Source of the DNA: Pollenia angustigena
Taxonomy: Eukaryota > Arthropoda > Insecta > Diptera > Polleniidae
DNA: 64,000 bases
NCBI GenBank assembly: GCA_930367215.1
Contig: OV884056.1
Span: 48,732,308-48,796,307 of the forward strand
Direction: 5' to 3'
Numbering within the stretch: position 1 is the first letter of the stretch; every line of letters starts with the position of its first letter. This document shows, piece after piece, positions 2,826 to 26,209 of the stretch. The translations under genes were made by a program, and so were the position numbers. The notes below the pieces were generated by a model, which did no database searches, was not told the DNA's origin, and worked only from the letters and a program-made list of their open reading frames with translations.

Positions 2826-3090
2826 GAACTCAAGCCTAACGAAATATTCAAATTAAAAATCGAACTACTAAATCACAATTGTACTAAATAGCTAAAAATA
2901 TCACAAGCTCTTTATGTTTATATTTGTACTTCAAGTTGTACAAATCAAATGTCGAAGAAAGTGGACAAAAAAATAGGAAACAAATGTACTCAGGACAAAG
3001 TCTTGACAGAAAGAGTACGAAAAAACAGAAAAAGAAACATGTAAATAAATTGAAAAATGATAATTAAAAAATGTTAAAGATTGATTTTTG

Positions 3091-3296
3091 ACTGTTGGCT
3101 AGCTGGTACCGCAGTGGTGCAGAGGGTAGAACTGCAAATAATTCTGATGATGAGAATTTGGTTATTCTCGAAACGTAAATTCAACCTGAGTTCGATCCCC
3201 AGCTTAGCCAAGAAAAAAAACTATCAATAAATTTTTATTAATTTCATGTTGCAAAACATCTTTTTAATATTATAATTTTAACCTGTACATTTCCAA
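3091..3296 (+). mobile_element. tRNA-like SINE, family A, longest copy
   Basis: Carries an A-box-like TGGCTAGCTGG (3096-3106) and a B-box AGTTCGATCC (3189-3198) inside GAGTTCGATCCCCAGC, then the family tail (AATTTCATGTTGCAAAAC). The spacing of A and B boxes (about 90 bp) is longer than in a tRNA gene. The copy lies inside the LINE pseudogene. Confidence 0.75.
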
Positions 3297-3608
3297 TACA
3301 GTGGAAACATGCTAAAATTGTTCCAGCACCAAATGGCGAATCTCTCCTAAGTTTTTGAAAAGGTGTTATATAAACAAATTTAAAACCATTTTAATGACAT
3401 TAACCTGTTAACTAATCGTCAATCTGAAATCAGACCTCAGCGCAGCTGTACTTCAGCTATTACCGATGTGAAAAAGCTTAGATAAAAAAAATTAAGTTTT
3501 TGCTATTATTGGAGCACTCAAAAGGTTTTCATACAATGCACCATTCAAGCTTGTGCATGAAATTGTTAAAATTATTTTTTTTATCCAAATTTTAAATTTT
3601 TAAATCAG

Positions 3609-3785
3609 GCTTCAGTTCATGAAATTTAATTTTCATTAAATTATTTAATGAAGAAAAGAATTTTTAGAACATGAAATTAATTAAAATTTCATTGATAATT
3701 TTTCATTCTTGACTGACGCTGGGAGTGAACTCACGTTCACGAACAGGTTGATCTGACATGTTTCGATAGTAGCCACTATCGAATA
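3609..3785 (-). mobile_element. tRNA-like SINE, family A, reverse copy
   Basis: Read in reverse, the head (TCGAAACATGTCAG), the ACCTGTTCGTGAA block, a mutated B box (GAGTTCACTCC) and TCAGTCAAG match the copy at 750-928 in order. The head end (3760-3785) was the landing site for the repeated hAT-end material that follows. Confidence 0.7.
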
Positions 3786-4152
3786 ATAATAATAAAAATA
3801 ATTGTTCGAATAATTTAGATTTGCTTATTTCGATTAATCGAATAATAATAATAATATATAGTATTTCTGTTAAATGTTTAATTTTTTTAATGTTAAGGTT
3901 GGTCTGTCATGTTTCGATAGTAACCGCTAAGGTGTTTAGTCGATTAATTGCTGTTCGATTAATCAAACAATTTTAGACGAATAATTGTTCGAATAATTTT
4001 GATTTGCTTACTTCTATTAAAGGGTTAATCGAAGAATTTGTACCGATTAACTTATACCGATTAATCGAATAATAATAATATATAGTATTTCTGTTAAATG
4101 TATAATTTTTTTAAAATTAAGGCCGATCTGACATATTTTCGGTAGTAACCTC
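3726..4152. repeat. tandem units made of SINE head plus hAT end
   Basis: The block GATCTGACATGTTTCGATAG... followed by CGAATAATAATAAT...TATAGTATTTCTG occurs at about 3735, again from about 3900, and a third head starts near 4123. Units are roughly 160 and 220 bp. Each joins a SINE head to CGATTAATCG-rich sequence of the adjacent hAT, so the array was made after the hAT landed in the SINE. Confidence 0.65.
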
Positions 4153-6567: not shown

Positions 6568-7098
6568 GAATTTTTGCCAGCAGACAGAAAAGGCTTAACG
6601 CGCTGCACAAGGTTGGTCTGTAAATGTAATTTGTAAAAAACTTTAATTAAAAAAGCAATTAATAAATATTTGTAAAGGCTTAAGGTAAATTAAAAATTAT
6701 GTTAACAAAAAAGGTTAACCCAAGTAAAAAAGTTAAAAATGTACACATTAAAAATGAAAAAAGTTAAGAAAATTAACCAAAATTAGCATTATATTAATTT
6801 AAAAAGGCAACAACCTTCACTTTGAATCACCAAATAATTCCATAGAAAATAAACTTCAATGACATTCTTTTTTTCCCCAAACTTAAGTACGAAAAACTTA
6901 TTTTTATTTTTACATTTTTCATAAGCTTAACTAATTTAAATAACGAGAATTTTTTTTTAACAATTAAAAAGGACGGAAATACAGGGGACTTAAACATTTT
7001 TTTAGGTCAATGATTAAAGAGCTGTTAAATTTTCGTGGTAATGTTTTACACAGTTATTTGGTTTTAACTAAAAATGGTTTCTTATTAAAACGATCTTC
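6568..7098. other. AT-rich, nothing recognised
   Basis: No coding frame or repeat relation found within the window. Confidence 0.45.
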
Positions 7099-7290
7099 GT
7101 ATGACGTGCTGAATTCCCAGTTTTTCATATTTGACAAATACACTGAAATTTATTGTTGAGGGAAAGCTAGCCTCTATGCGCATTTCGCCGGTTGCTTAAA
7201 CCAGCTCATCAGGAAACCTTTTCCAAAGATTTTAGAAAAGCCAAAAATATTAAACAAATAAAACCCTAAAGCGAATAAGAGTTATAAACA
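7099..7290 (-). repeat. hammerhead-bearing repeat, copy 1
   Basis: About 190 bp shared with 25793-25975: both run from a GATGTGCTTAATTCCCA-like edge, through the hammerhead core, to AATAAAAC..TAAAGCGAAT. It has no coding frame. The shared boundaries, in unrelated surroundings, mark it as a dispersed element. Known carriers of such ribozymes include Penelope-like elements and small retrotransposon-type repeats; which applies here is not shown. Confidence 0.7.
7161..7224 (-). ncRNA. type I hammerhead ribozyme
   Basis: On the minus strand all conserved core positions are present in order. Stem I 5' arm is 7224-7213, then CTGATGA (7212-7206). Stem II is GCTGGTT / AACCGGC (7205-7199 with 7193-7187), seven pairs, one of them G-U, closed by a TAAGC loop. 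GAAA follows (7186-7183), then the self-complementary ATGCGCAT that supplies stem III with A15.1-U16.1. Cleavage is predicted after A17 (7175). The stem I 3' arm (7174-7161) pairs its first six bases and then TTTCC with GGAAA across an internal loop. The very short loopless stem III matches minimal type I hammerheads that are known to work better as dimers. Self-cleavage is an inference. Confidence 0.75.
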
Positions 7291-8667
7291 CTCTAAGTCT
7301 TACTTGTAACAATATCAAAGCTTAAACAAAACACCAACAATAAACAGTGAGTTTATCTTTTCTTACATCCCCCTACAATTGGTTGGGTTTTTTCTGACCC
7401 GAATTGTAGTTGTAAGTGGGTTAAAAGAAAAAACAAAATTTAAAAACAAACCGCTTCATTATATTGTCTTCGTAAGAAAACAACGAAATAAACCAATTTG
7501 CCAATTCAGTTTTATGCACGGGCATTTCATTTTTCATTTTAACAAAATGTTTTTAATACGAATACAAAAATTAACTTAAATAATACACAAAATTGGCAGA
7601 CGTGACTAGCCCGCATGATTTTTTTTTTTTTTTTTTTTTTAGTTCAGCAAATGCCAACACGGAACAGTCAGACTCTGTGCCAATAACTTTTGACACTTAA
7701 TAATTTGATAAGAGTCAAATCTAATTCAGATTTAGAACACGTTCACCTAGAAAATTTGAGTTCAATTTTTAAAAAGCCATCACTTTTTGTATTGTTACAG
7801 AAAAAAAAAATGCTGGAAACAAATTCAGTAATTTTGTTGGCTTCATAGAAAACTAGTTTTTTATCTTAAAACATATTTTTTATTACCATAAATTATATCT
7901 TTTCTCAAATAGAAACTAGATTAAAATACCTTAAAATGTTAAGGGAAACATAAATTTCAAAATTTATTTCTTCTTAAATAGAAACTAGATTAAAATACCC
8001 AAAAATGTTAAGGAAAACTTAAATTTCAAAAGTTATTGAGTTTTTGTGCAACTGGGCGTATGATTGTTATTGATAACATTGCTTTTCAAAATGGAGCTAT
8101 TTAAAAGTTACCTTAATATGAATTACCTGATTCTTATGTATTTTCATCTGCTGATGACGATAGCGTGATTAGTTTTTCCCTAACAGCTTTAGTTTCAAAG
8201 ATAAAGTGACACATATTATTTGAACAATTAACACTATTTTCTATTTTATTCGGTCAGTTTTTCGCTAACGGTCTTCAAAACCTTAAAATACTTTCTGGTT
8301 ATTAATCTACACAAAAATCTCTTTCTTTTGTGAAGGGTCACGTTATTGAATTTATCAGGATATCTCACTGCTATTGCAAGGATATTAACATTTTTGTGTT
8401 TTTGGTTCAGTCCTTAAAACTTTTGTATGTAAATTTTCTGCTATAAAAACAATAACTTTGATAATAACAGATCCTTATGTATTTTTGTCTTCTCATTACA
8501 AATTTAAAATTCGTTTTCGCCTACCAACTTTTGGTTAAGAGATACTGTGCATTAATTTAAAAAAATAAATGAATTTGGTTTTTGTGTGAAATTTATCATC
8601 AACAACAAAATGGTTACGAAGAAAACGAATTGTGCGAATAATCCAGACAGTTTTGTGTCAGTATATT
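7291..8667. other. no gene; poly-T and a 69-bp duplicated block
   Basis: Contains a 22-nt T run (7619-7640) and two tandem copies of an AAATAGAAACTAGATTAAAA block, near 7907 and 7976 (period 69). Open frames here are short and without recognisable domains. Confidence 0.5.
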
Positions 8668-18016: not shown

Positions 18017-19869
18017 CAGGTGCGGATCCAGCTTGAGCCTTAGGGGGGGGGGAATTTTTTATGATACAAAAAAAATTTGTTTTTAAAAGTTTATTAAAAG
18101 CAATTTGTGTATATTATATTAAAAAAACTCAACAATAAGGTTAAATAAAATATTCAATATAAATTAAAATAAACTTATCTTTTTAAATAAGCAATTTATG
18201 ATTTCCTTGTGAGGCAAATTTAGATAGTACAGTCTATGTTCAGTTTGTCATTGTTGATCTGAGCCATGTTTTTATTCGACGAAGGGTAGGAAATAACCTC
18301 TCGCTCGTAGCATTACTGACGAGCATTGAAACGAAAATTTGAAATATTTTTCTTAGATTTGGGTAGATATCTTCATCACAGTTTATTAAAGCATCTACAA
18401 CGTTATCTGATAGATTTTAGATTTCCATGTTTGTTGCCAATGCTACACTTCAGACTCAAGTTTAGATGTTAGTAGGTGTTTATCCCGAGTTGTGGTTTTA
18501 AAAGTTTTATATCTATAATATGACTTGATTACACTTTGAGTAGAAGTTTTGGTATGTTCAATACATTAAAGATATCTTTTGGAAAGGTGTTTTGCGATCT
18601 TCTAAAATAAATTCAATAAGAGAATGAAACCTACAACTCGGTAGAAATCTTCAACATTTTGGATGTGATTATTTCGTTCAAATCTTGTTTTTTAGGTTGG
18701 AACCTCGATTTGAACGCAAATCACTTTAACTTTTTTAAAAATCACTTTAAATTGTTCTTCTGCTTTATTTCTTTTTTCTTCAAGGCACATGATCAAAGTT
18801 TTGATAAGGCTTGATCCTTTTTGAAGATCTATATCGTACTTTTGTAAAATGATACAAAGCGGCTGTGTTACAATAAGTATCACACTTAATATGTTTATTC
18901 CGCAAATAAATTCAAAAGTTCTAAGTGAGTTCCTTAATATAAGGCTCTTGATGAAGTATCTCTACCTTTCCACGCAGATATTTTTTCCAAAGCTTCTACT
19001 ATATGATGTACACTTGTTGCAAAGTGTAAAGCTGAGTCGTGACGGTCCACCCATCTTGTCTCGCATAATGTAGAGAGTTTGGCTCCCAAATACTTTACTA
19101 AGAACGTGTTTTGCCTGATTTACGGGAAATAGCAAGGCGTTTGTTTCGCATTTGTCGCGGTTTCCAGAATTTTTTACAGCTCCATTTTCTGCTGACATCA
19201 AACGACACCCATCAGTTCCAACTCCTATACAATTTTTTAGGTCAAGACTAAAAGTTGTCAAAGTTTTAAGAACTGTTGATGATAGTGCCATCGCATCAAT
19301 TGACACATCAGCGTCATTATCAATATCCTGTGAAGGCTCTTCAAATGCTTTTACAACAAAGCCAAAACAATTCTTGCCTAACAACTTTTTGTTGTATGGT
19401 GAAATATCTTAAATGTAAGGAAATCTGGCTTTCCCCGACAAATCCGTGCTTTCGTCAAAAATTATCGAATAGAATTTTGATTCATATAACACATTAATAT
19501 AAACAAAATTGCAAATACCAAGGCTTTTTAATAATTCAACCGCACGCATTTTCAAGTCAAACGTTTACTCTTTGGTTATACATAGATGGCACCTGCTGTA
19601 TAAGTATTTGAATACAGTAAACTAGATGTTTCATTGAAAATATCTAATAAATAACTATTAGGATGAAGATTTGGATATTTATTGAAAATTTCGTTAGAGA
19701 TTCAATAAAAAAACAAAAAAAAAACTTGCTGGGATTTCCAAAAATTTTGTACATTAAAAAAAGATAATATTAATGGGAACTCTTGTATTATCAAAATAAA
19801 CAAAACATATTTTTTTATCATTTACGGGGGGGAAATTTCCTTATTTCACCCCCCCTGAATCCGCGCCTG
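18017..19869 (-). mobile_element. hAT element with perfect 8-bp TSD
   Basis: ACTAACAC is repeated exactly at 18009-18016 and 19870-19877. The ends CAGGTGCGGATCCAGC and (inverse) CAGGCGCGGATTCAGG, followed by runs of G, are of the CAGG-GCGGAT type seen in Zaphod/ZMYM-like hAT transposons. The 1853-bp body carries a single decayed transposase on the minus strand. Confidence 0.9.
18180..19560 (-). pseudogene. hAT transposase pseudogene
   Basis: Read 3' to 5' on the plus strand, frames spell in order: a YSIIFDESTDLSGKARF block containing the catalytic DEST/D signature of the DUF4371-type hAT RNase-H fold (about 19480-19420); a VGTDGCRLMSAENGAV stretch (19210-19165); an ETRWVDRHDSALHF block (19080-19030) with the conserved R-W of this group; and a C-terminal dimerisation region, YPNLRKIFQIFVSMLVSNAT followed by SERLFS, near 18350-18280. 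At least one frameshift (around 19065) and several stops break it. The terminal repeats and target duplication of its own element are intact. Confidence 0.8.
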
Positions 19870-19877
19870 ACTAACAC

Positions 19878-20543
19878 AATTTATCTCTCCTTTTTCCTTT
19901 GAATTTTCAACGGAATTTCATAATGTTTAGTTTCAATTGTTGTTGGTGTTAGTTGTTTTTTTACACTTTATTTATTGTTAATTTCATTTTTAGTGTGAAA
20001 TAAAAATATTTGTTTATTATCCAACAAACCCAGTTGGCAGTGTTGCCAACTATGTTTGACAAATGTGGAAATTTTTAATTAAAAAAATATCTAACATAGG
20101 GATTATTTAAATCTTATTACAGAAAAGAAATCAATATTAATCATATTAATACATAAGAAAGAAAGTTAAGCCGAGAGAGCCGTGGTATAGCCCACGTCGT
20201 AAAAAAATTTGTTACTAAGCATCGTAACGCCACGAAGTTAAGATTAATATTAAATTTGTTTGTGCAGAAATTACTAAAATACTTCAAATAAATAAATTCG
20301 TTTGAATGAGCTTTTCAAAAGGAGCTCATAAAAGACCCATAATCGATTATGGACCTCTATCTACGTAAATATTAAAGTAAATTTTTCCAAATTATATCAG
20401 AATTTCAAACTTTATAGAGAATTTTTGGTACAGTAAATGCAATTTGAAGGTGTCATACTTTCTTGAAAGCTTTATTTAAATATGGACTAACTTCGATAAG
20501 ACTTGGTAGTGTAAATATCAGAAATGCAAGCAATTCATTCAGA
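19878..20543. other. no gene recognised
   Basis: AT-rich; nothing supportable. Confidence 0.45.
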
Positions 20544-20627
20544 AACAAGTTAGAATACTATATTTGGCTGTACAGAATCTTTGATACCCTCCACCGACAG
20601 TTCGAATATTTCAGGAGTGGGCTCGAT

Positions 20628-21349
20628 ATTATATCTATATATTATCAATTAATCTGTAGTCGGATATCTTTGAATGAGATTGCGAAGCATTCAAGGGTAA
20701 CGTTTGTATGGATACCAGGGCATTTGGAATGCCCGGGCAATCAGATAGCAGATGAGCTGGTCAAACATGGTCTTCGCAAGGATGATGCATTGCTTAATCG
20801 ATTCGTTGGCCTTCCAATAGCTCACTGTAAGTCCCTTATCAATCGCGAGTCTTAAACAGTTGCTCAGATGGGGTGGACCTGCTCCATATCCAGGATACAA
20901 TGGTCTGCATATGATGAACGGAGAACTTACTACCTAGTTAGTTTAAAAAGGGACCAGATTAGAACAGTGGTATCAGTTATAACTGGGCACTGGCCGCTGG
21001 GGACCCATGCTGGAAGAATGGGTCTAGAATTCAATGACTACTGCAGAAGTTGTCATGATGAAGAGGAAGAGGAGACTTTGCTTCACTTTCTTTGTCAATG
21101 CCCTGGGATACGGGGCGCCAGGGAAGAATACCTGGGGGAACCGGTGTTTGCCTGCTTGGAGGATCTATCTAGTTCTAGAACTTATATCGCTTTTTCTCTT
21201 CATTATGAAGACAAATTGGTTGAACTTTGCAGTAACGCCATCTGAGTAACTGCTCTATAGGATGAGCATTGGCGCTGGGTATCACAAAGCGACCAATAAA
21301 GGACCCTAAGCTGTCTTTCTCGATGGGAGCCTACAACTTTACCTAACTA
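20628..21349 (+). pseudogene. 5'-truncated LINE: RNase H and C-terminal CCHC-like region
   Basis: One frame runs to 21245 with a single internal stop (TAA, 20853-20855). The first part has the last RNase H motif, VTFVWIPGHLECPGNQIADE, typical of I/R1-type non-LTR retrotransposons. The second contains VSVITGHWPLGTHAGRMGL and the zinc-knuckle-like CRSCH..EEEEETLLHFLCQC..C signature that closes such ORF2 proteins. A short 3' UTR (to about 21349) includes CGATGGGAGCCTACAAC. Truncation at the 5' side, as is normal for LINE insertions, removed the RT. It sits inside the DINE-like element F3. Confidence 0.85.
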
Positions 21350-25508: not shown

Positions 25509-26209
25509 CACAGAAAAAAAAAATTTTCATATTTGAATACGAAAATCGCATATTTGATAAAAAAAAAAATTTTTTTAATTTTCTGCGATGACAATTTTTC
25601 GGTATTGATGAAAAAAATTGTAGGTATAGATATTGAATTTTTTGTCAACAACCAAGTTTATTGAGTCAATAAAAAAAGTTGTTGCCCAAAATAATTGTTT
25701 TCAACAAAATGTTAACGTGATTTGTTCAAATAAATTGTTGAAAATTTTTAATAAATCAAACAAAATGTTTATAATCTTTATTTATTAATGATGATGTGCT
25801 TAATTCCCAATTTTTTTCATTTTAAATAAATACGCTAAAGTTTATTATGGGGGGATAAGCTAGTTCCTATGTGCATTTCTCTGGTTGCTTAGGCCAGATC
25901 ATTAGGAAACCTTTTTCCAAAGACATTGGCAAAACTAATTATATTTTACAAATAAAACTAAAGCGAATGAGACTTTACAAATGGAAAAGAGTTGTAAAAA
26001 TACTGTATTTACTTTGATTCAAATTTTTTTATTGATTATGTAGAAATATTTAATTATTTCATTATTAAATATGTTTTATTGAATGCTATTTTGCAAAGTG
26101 TAAATTTGATCAATTTTTTCATTGAATCAAACAAAAAGTTTATTGACCTAAAATTTAATTTTCAACAAACTGTGTTGTTAAAAATTTTCTTGAATTATTT
26201 TTTTCTGTG
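25509..26209. mobile_element. CACAG-ended element with AAC duplication
   Basis: Ends CACAGAAAAAAAAAATTT and (inverse) CACAGAAAAAAATAATTC, flanked by AAC on both sides. Same terminal family as 32428-32910 and 45308. Contains hammerhead repeat copy 2. Confidence 0.65.
25793..25975 (-). repeat. hammerhead repeat copy 2, core mutated
   Basis: Minus strand 25918-25852: the core reads CTAATGA instead of CTGATGA, so the invariant G5 is lost and activity is unlikely. Stem II (TCTGG / CCAGA), GAAA, a short ATGCACAT stem III and the AG cleavage-site context remain. Stem I still pairs through its first six positions although its 3' arm differs from copy 1. Confidence 0.7.

Follow-up and report, generated by a model that had tools for sequence, protein, structure and literature searches.

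The closest described relatives of the locus analyzed here are the metazoan non-LTR retrozymes reported from coral, mussel and axolotl (Cervera and de la Pena 2020, PMC7229834). The portion of that paper drawn on here mentions analogous repeats in many invertebrate phyla, insects included, and gives a length of 170-400 nt for retrozyme RNAs, with a range of 150 to >1000 nt in its discussion. Two axolotl hammerheads described in the same portion differ in helix III, which consists of one pair plus a palindromic tetraloop in Amex1 and of two pairs plus a tetraloop, like the invertebrate ones, in Amex2. Another point of comparison is provided by Penelope-like elements. According to parts of PMC7761336 and PMC6155905, their hammerheads usually lack non-conserved helix III nucleotides and, where mapped, lie in the pseudo-LTRs of a protein-coding element.

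The window, a 64-kb stretch of the Pollenia angustigena genome, carries a type I hammerhead motif on its minus strand that is very probably the self-cleaving part of a non-autonomous animal non-LTR retrozyme, copied by the mechanism proposed below. Corals, mussels and salamanders have already yielded retrozymes, and the repeat described here would be a new member of that known kind. The motif belongs to family A, and a second hammerhead-bearing repeat is called family B. Loci outside the window carry L numbers, and u denotes a position on the 487-bp unit of family A as read in L026:250-736.

Table 1. Features of the hammerhead motif and of the repeats that carry it (L numbers denote loci outside the window; all other positions are those of the window)
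Feature	Position	Strand	Basis
Type I hammerhead ribozyme motif, whole	7161..7224	minus	structural descriptor, aligned copies, covariance model
Stem I, 5' strand GGAAAAGGTTTC; outer GGAA, inner GTTTC	7213..7224 (read 7224-7213)	minus	
Catalytic core CTGATGA	7206..7212	minus	sequence reading, descriptor
Stem-loop II, GCTGGTT/AACCGGC, loop TAAGC, 5-7 pairs	7187..7205	minus	
Core GAA	7184..7186	minus	
Helix III ATGCGCAT: two pairs and palindromic GCGC tetraloop	7176..7183	minus	
Predicted cleavage site, between A17 (7175) and 7174	7174..7175	minus	inferred from motif
Stem I, 3' strand	7161..7174	minus	
Putative retrozyme copy, family A, u15-u461 of 487-bp unit, 96% identical	7077..7524	minus	
Second, older family-A copy, u256-u437, core mutated to CTAATGA	25791..25975	minus	
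AT-rich repeat of ~650 bp, apparently carrying the second family-A copy as passenger	25516..26172	minus	
Family-B copy, decayed	650-945	plus	
Family-B copy, decayed	3591-3889	minus	
Antisense frame in family-A copy	L025:1111-1452	minus	
Antisense frame in family-A copy	L032:1116-1451	minus	
Antisense frame in family-A copy	L039:1027-1458	minus	
Antisense frame in family-A copy	L040:1680-2015	plus	

The hammerhead motif

As originally predicted, all elements of a type I hammerhead can be placed on the minus strand: CUGANGA...GAA, A15.1-U16.1, H17, and three helices in an arrangement open at stem I. A descriptor demanding the core, at least three pairs in each of stems I and II, A15.1/U16.1 and H17 matched the 64-kb window solely at 7161-7224, and the outcome was unchanged when core position 7 was set to N. 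Over 200 dinucleotide shuffles of the window, loose descriptor matches averaged 0.085 per shuffle, and no match had at least six pairs in stem I together with at least five in stem II. The motif is real and lies far beyond chance.

Read from its sequence, the motif is a predicted self-cutting RNA, and the proposed cut after position 7175 agrees with the motif reading, which puts A17 at that nucleotide. Stem III had been described as loopless, but it is better read as an A-U and a U-A pair closed by the palindromic GCGC tetraloop, both pairs being kept in 22/22 aligned copies. Because the helix III palindrome can still pair between two molecules, the accompanying suggestion of dimers stands.

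Folded alone, 81 nt do not adopt the hammerhead as their minimum-energy structure and are no stabler than shuffles (z 0.54; 136/200 shuffles equally good), a lone fold of this kind being uninformative for hammerheads. Rfam lists no hammerhead family for the window at the gathering score and, at E<=10, none over 1.5 kb or over 86 nt around the motif, nor did an Rfam search of family B give one. These Rfam misses count against the motif. A genome-wide search with RF00163 returned no match anywhere, control genomes included, and does not demonstrate absence. The covariance score by which the original prediction had asked to be judged thus formally lies below the Rfam threshold. We judge the Rfam hammerhead models to be unsuited to so short a helix III, a judgment made without a positive control. 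Because Rfam lists no hammerhead, the claim made here is for the motif rather than for Rfam family membership. Our own covariance model, built from 22 family-A copies and searched against 264 kb (the window plus 200 kb of neighboring sequence), found 14 places at E<=1, and nine of the 11 places below 1e-9 are training rows of the model.

Family A, a dispersed repeat with tandem units

The placement of the motif in a dispersed repeat was borne out by a genome-wide search, which gave 40 scored copies at 97-100% on contigs C1-C5 from 1,325 first-look candidates, and by 1,345 genome-wide matches (660 and 685) to the pattern CTGATGAGCTGGNNTAAGCAACCGGCGAAATGCGC, whose reversed control gave 0. This pattern has 35 places, two of them free; it runs from CTGATGA through stem II and GAA to the middle of helix III, and excludes stem I, U16.1 and position 17. 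Within the 264 kb, which are a non-random sample of the genome, 21 family-A fragments account for 1.7% of bases.

Elsewhere the repeat forms short arrays of 487-bp head-to-tail units with one hammerhead per unit, as in L026 (five cores at 487-bp spacing) and L029 (four cores spaced 487, 474 and 488). The first 100 listed pattern places fall into 77 clusters, and 19/21 same-strand neighbors closer than 2 kb among them are 474, 487 or 974-976 bp apart, the other two spacings being 830 and 941. A continuous match longer than one unit occurs at 8/30 loci, and no LTR layout was seen in the arrays or loci of the family. When folded, the unit is somewhat more stable than its shuffles (z -2.05; 4/100 equally good).

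The window copy at 7077-7524 is single and nearly full-length; it lies outside any array, starts 14 nt into the unit and stops 26 nt short of its end. The second window copy, 78% identical to 7101-7283, is 5'-truncated (u256 to about ATTAATAA) and sits within an AT-rich repeat in which it is probably a passenger; a sister copy of the combined repeat is found at L015 in three pieces separated by other insertions. Four family-A copies share an open frame of 112-144 codons on the strand opposite the ribozyme (Table 1), probably through chance and homology. Inverted-repeat insertions occur near u243 in L023 and L049, related at 93% and in opposite orientation, and between 231 and 243 in L037; the near-identical spot in three copies may be one that a TTA-duplicating transposon prefers as its target.

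Conservation of pairing was followed in an alignment (A2) of 22 of 54 rows, which left out seven broken or partial rows (L001, L002 twice, L013:4749, L016, L018, L032:1015) and 25 near-identical ones. Standard pairs fill 93.8% of its 352 pair cells vs 38-51% for slid partners, a comparison that favors the structure, which was drawn from the same sequences. Covariation is present: five cells are changed on both sides (shuffled mean 1.2; reached by 0/500 shuffles), and these sit in three pairs, a number reached by 40/500 shuffles. The core is broken in 5/22 copies, at G5 in w25k and L013b, at A9 in L007, and by a G at position 17 in L004c and L048. Older copies inside and outside the alignment also carry T->C at core position 7, which we take to be a free position; L002 reads CTGACGA, and L007, L013:8443 and L018 combine this change with others.

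A second retrozyme-like family

The descriptor scan also located a hammerhead unrelated to family A at L001:6603, L015:7102 and L036:2759, all on the minus strand. This family B, found at L017, L033 and L051 as well, combines an A-CATG-T helix III with GUC as its cleavage site, and a B-box-like GGTTCGAGCCC follows downstream. In the four loci searched with ARAGORN, no tRNA gene turned up. Eight of the nine collected copies entered the pairing test, in which 89.9% of 79 pair cells are standard vs 17-38% when slid. Six cells are changed on both sides (0/500 shuffles), whereas the three pairs holding such changes are reached by 67/500 shuffles and the number of pair types by 320/500. The full core is kept in 3/8 rows (L015a, L036 and L001). 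The pattern CTGANGAGATNNAGTGGTTGNNATCGAAACATGTC, whose free places do not force stem II pairing, has 22,852 genome-wide matches (11,512 and 11,340; control 0). Among 100 listed places, GATTG/CAATC and GATCG/CGATC stems are both common, which amounts to a U-A to C-G double change; the few deviating stems are one GATCA/TGATC, one GATCA with CGATC and one GATCC with CGATC.

Family-B units of ~567 bp are arranged in both head-to-tail and head-to-head blocks. The 100 listed places form 45 clusters, with same-strand neighbors 560-582 bp apart in 42/44 cases (the others 484 and 1116) and adjacent opposite-strand places closer than 2 kb oriented (-,+) in 11 cases and (+,-) in 0. Nine arrays offer two or more spacings of 540-600 bp; inside each of them unit length hardly changes, the variation lying between arrays (within sum of squares 27 of 967; 0/10,000 permutations). 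Both arms are equal in unit length in all three measurable blocks (636440, 1217169 and 4243986). In array 2410008 the unit ranges between 576 and 582 bp, and one step of 484 bp, which is outside the counted range, occurs in the longest array.

At L051 (C1:4243600-4247400), a single 11-bp repeat, AAATATTAATA, noticed by eye in flanks rich in AT, encloses three minus and three plus units. The six units differ over 216 nt by 10 singletons and one shared column. The block looks like a single event in which both sides of a break primed rolling cDNA synthesis on one circular template, a reading that draws on one block read and on the spacing and orientation of the 100 listed places.

Two other classifications of family B, as a minimal Penelope-type hammerhead and as a SINE with a ribozyme, were dropped, since its tandem units and A-CATG-T helix III put it closer to the Amex1 type. 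A related short repeat at window positions 3045-3260 (plus strand) reads CTGATGA-T-GAGAAT/ATTCTC-GAA-ACGT-A-AATT; this resembles a hammerhead in which an additional base precedes stem II and ACGT has no loop.

Insertion footprint of family A

The 5' ends of family-A copies scatter along the unit. Of the 3' ends at 29 loci (L026 being omitted, as its array reaches the locus edge), 15 lie within u450-470 and 13 within u482-u7, with L030 the exception at u428; these ends lie roughly 90-130 nt past the predicted cut after u363. The 3' ends may lie at TAA-rich spots, as in I-type LINEs. No 5' end falls within 5 nt of the cut in the 29 loci. In the 264-kb neighborhood, 16/21 fragments have 3' ends within u430-u10 where about three are expected; the p value of 2e-10 assumes independence of all 21 and is too small, because several fragments belong to one insertion. 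One 5' end falls in the same range. Near the cut there are one fragment boundary at u363 (L016), inside a broken inverted copy whose tail continues, and one 5' end within 5 nt (L013, u359). Since 3' ends lie past the cut and hardly any boundary coincides with it, the RNA template usually ran through the cut, as either a closed circle or an uncleaved transcript, between which family A does not discriminate.

Words common to both flanks average 6.48 vs 5.35 when permuted (0/5000) at 27 loci, with L026, L035 and L043 omitted, and words of at least seven letters occur at 12/27 loci vs 4.7 expected (p 0.0004); some of the shared words are A- or T-runs or extend into the element. Plain target duplications are AGGTGTAA (L027), GTAAAATAAT (L028), TTATGGC (L036) and GAGGGTAT (L040), the remaining loci of the 27 showing no clear one; where present, duplications are ~7-11 bp long. 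Among the L-numbered loci, the search for another element sharing the retrozyme tail gave only retrozyme copies and short truncated pieces. Family-A copies look inserted by target priming.

An inverted piece adjoins a forward piece at the adjacent loci L001/L002 and at L004, L013, L016 and L035, and all five have both outer arm ends within u430-u10 (for L016 the left end comes from the tail match). The outer arm ends at L052 are u4 and u221, only u4 lying within u430-u10; here an 11-bp repeat, AAACTTATTTT (by eye), flanks a copy of the classic twin-primed kind, with an RNA path longer than a single unit. Adjacent opposite-strand places closer than 2 kb number two (-,+) and 0 (+,-) among the first 100 listed for the family.

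Within arrays, the closest unit belongs to another locus for 7/8 units of L029, L035 and L040; in L026 it is an array mate for 3/4 and belongs to another locus for 1/4, some end units in both counts including flank. Five units of L026 show one singleton and 0 shared variants over 150 nt, and four units of L029 show seven singletons and 0 shared variants over 190 nt. Random sets of five loci also lack a shared variant in 19% of draws, and the single-template case for family A is therefore weak; the star pattern indicating a single template is stronger for L051.

Comparison with known systems

The repeats described here have in common with metazoan retrozymes, as presented in the portion of PMC7229834 used, a type I hammerhead, a helix III of few pairs, tandem units of low GC (no LTR layout having been seen here), target duplications >4 bp and thousands of copies. 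Both families place the type I hammerhead in short head-to-tail units, the family-A unit has a GC content of 32.9% (low meaning <45-50%), and the duplications exceed 4 bp when present, which is not at every locus. The two-pair plus tetraloop helix III of axolotl HHR_Amex2 matches that of family A, and the one-pair plus palindromic tetraloop of HHR_Amex1 matches the A-CATG-T of family B, both being matches of helix layout with sequences uncompared (PMC7229834, in part). Units are 487 bp (A) and ~567 bp (B) here vs ~170-400 nt for the RNAs and 330 and 350 bp for the axolotl units in the same source. The B-box-like GGTTCGAGCCC sets family B apart from the axolotl hammerheads. Unlike the metazoan retrozymes described in that portion of PMC7229834, the repeats here include many dispersed single 5'-truncated copies. 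No description of head-to-head retrozyme blocks was found in the parts of PMC7229834, PMC7761336 and PMC6155905 covered, and a literature search for retrozyme with fly returned nothing pertinent, only circRNAs in cancer, which does not prove absence.

The original prediction had also stated that no element explains the motif, which finds no support because the repeat is, on our reading, a retrozyme with tandem 487-bp units. Schistosoma Sm-alpha is a non-autonomous retrotransposon with a type I hammerhead, and family A can be likened to it on both counts by description, with sequences uncompared; unlike Sm-alpha, the family-A unit shows no Pol III boxes by simple consensus. Sm-alpha is named in the part of PMC6155905 used here. 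The likeness to Penelope-type hammerheads, proposed at the outset, holds for the type I layout and suspected dimer action (PMC7761336 and PMC6155905, in part), but it is weaker than the likeness to animal retrozymes with a short helix III (PMC7229834, in part).

Neighboring elements

Several other elements lie nearby. An open frame of 684 codons at L019:3659-5710 (plus), which we take to be Transib-like, matches the DNA-mediated transposase structure 6pqn (E 3.3e-90) and, more weakly, RAG1. At L005:6332-8719 (minus), an open 796-codon frame contains a reverse transcriptase domain (RVT_1 E 1.7e-42). The window itself holds, at 20448-21245 (plus) and 18965-19408 (minus), frames that by eye are LINE-like (RNase H/tail), together with what may be a fragment of a transposase. 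Some 29 kb beyond the end of the window, L013:8600-9523 (minus), downstream of the Penelope-like fragment considered below, contains CTGAGGA-T-GCTACTC-GAA-GAGTAGC-GAA-GTA, read by eye as a possible decayed Penelope-type hammerhead. The frame at L013:9524-10000, beside the same fragment, is GIY-YIG-like by reading, with no Pfam match.

Alternative explanations

The repeat might be all or part of the pseudo-LTR of a Penelope-like element, in which case its hammerhead would work for that element, an autonomous one. Such elements are known to carry type I hammerheads and to show tandem copies (PMC7229834 and PMC7761336, in part), and ~32 kb beyond the end of the window there is a reverse transcriptase fragment (L014:1748-2482 minus, RVT_1 E 4.6e-7) that is Penelope-like by reading alone. 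We nevertheless consider this very improbable: the 2.1-kb part of the L026 array that was read consists of 487-bp units with no reverse transcriptase between them, the family-A helix III is not of the kind lacking non-conserved nucleotides (PMC7761336, in part), and a relaxed scan of 20 kb around the fragment gave only the L013 family-A copy and one weak match. With the fragment nearby, a possible helper class may exist. The least probable account sees the repeat as a plain SINE or satellite whose hammerhead is a relic without function, its arrays being products of unequal crossing-over and conversion. It is indeed SINE-like for truncated copies to be dispersed and to have target duplications, and the core is broken in the second window copy and in four more of the 22 aligned copies. 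However, the stems keep pairing through changes that are partly both-sided, CTGATGA, stem II and GAA are intact at 1,345 places, and a head-to-head block in one apparent target duplication is not expected from crossing-over or conversion, though these can homogenize arrays.

A stronger competitor, though still an unlikely one, holds that copies derive from uncleaved multimeric transcripts with fixed 3' ends rather than from circles, so that the ribozyme matters little for transposition. In 28/29 loci the inserts begin at u450-470 or u482-u7 instead of at the cleaved end u363, and a fixed transcript end would produce the same result; units also differ within arrays L029, L035 and L040. A single-unit template is indicated, by contrast, by the family-B unit length, near constant within each of nine arrays and different between them, and by the near identity of the six L051 units. 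Moreover, no consistent poly(A) tail was seen by eye at the 3' ends, although the right flanks of L047 and L049 are rich in A.

Proposed mechanism and implications

For the retrozyme reading that we prefer, self-cleavage, RNA circles and a helper enzyme are steps that we infer. Read-through transcripts of family-A arrays would be cut at each hammerhead, singly or as dimers, and the 487-nt pieces would be closed into RNA circles by a host RNA ligase. The reverse transcriptase of another retroelement would then start at preferred sites ~90-130 nt past the cut and may circle the template more than once, and the cDNA would be inserted by target priming, at times from both sides of the break. The family-B blocks fit rolling reverse transcription of a circular RNA primed from both sides of one break. 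That retrozyme circles are reverse transcribed by rolling, with both break sides often priming at one start zone and leaving head-to-head palindromes in a single target duplication, is a proposal that we hold tentatively, a shade short of an even call.

The layout of the copies suggests a mode of retrozyme insertion. The 3' start preference, the target duplications, the inverted arms and the single-template arrays would together be the genomic footprint of the proposed circle-templated step, and two retrozyme families, one with so many pattern matches, put thousands of insertion junctions on offer. If the proposal is true, two-sided, circle-templated, target-primed reverse transcription would be readable genome-wide in this fly.
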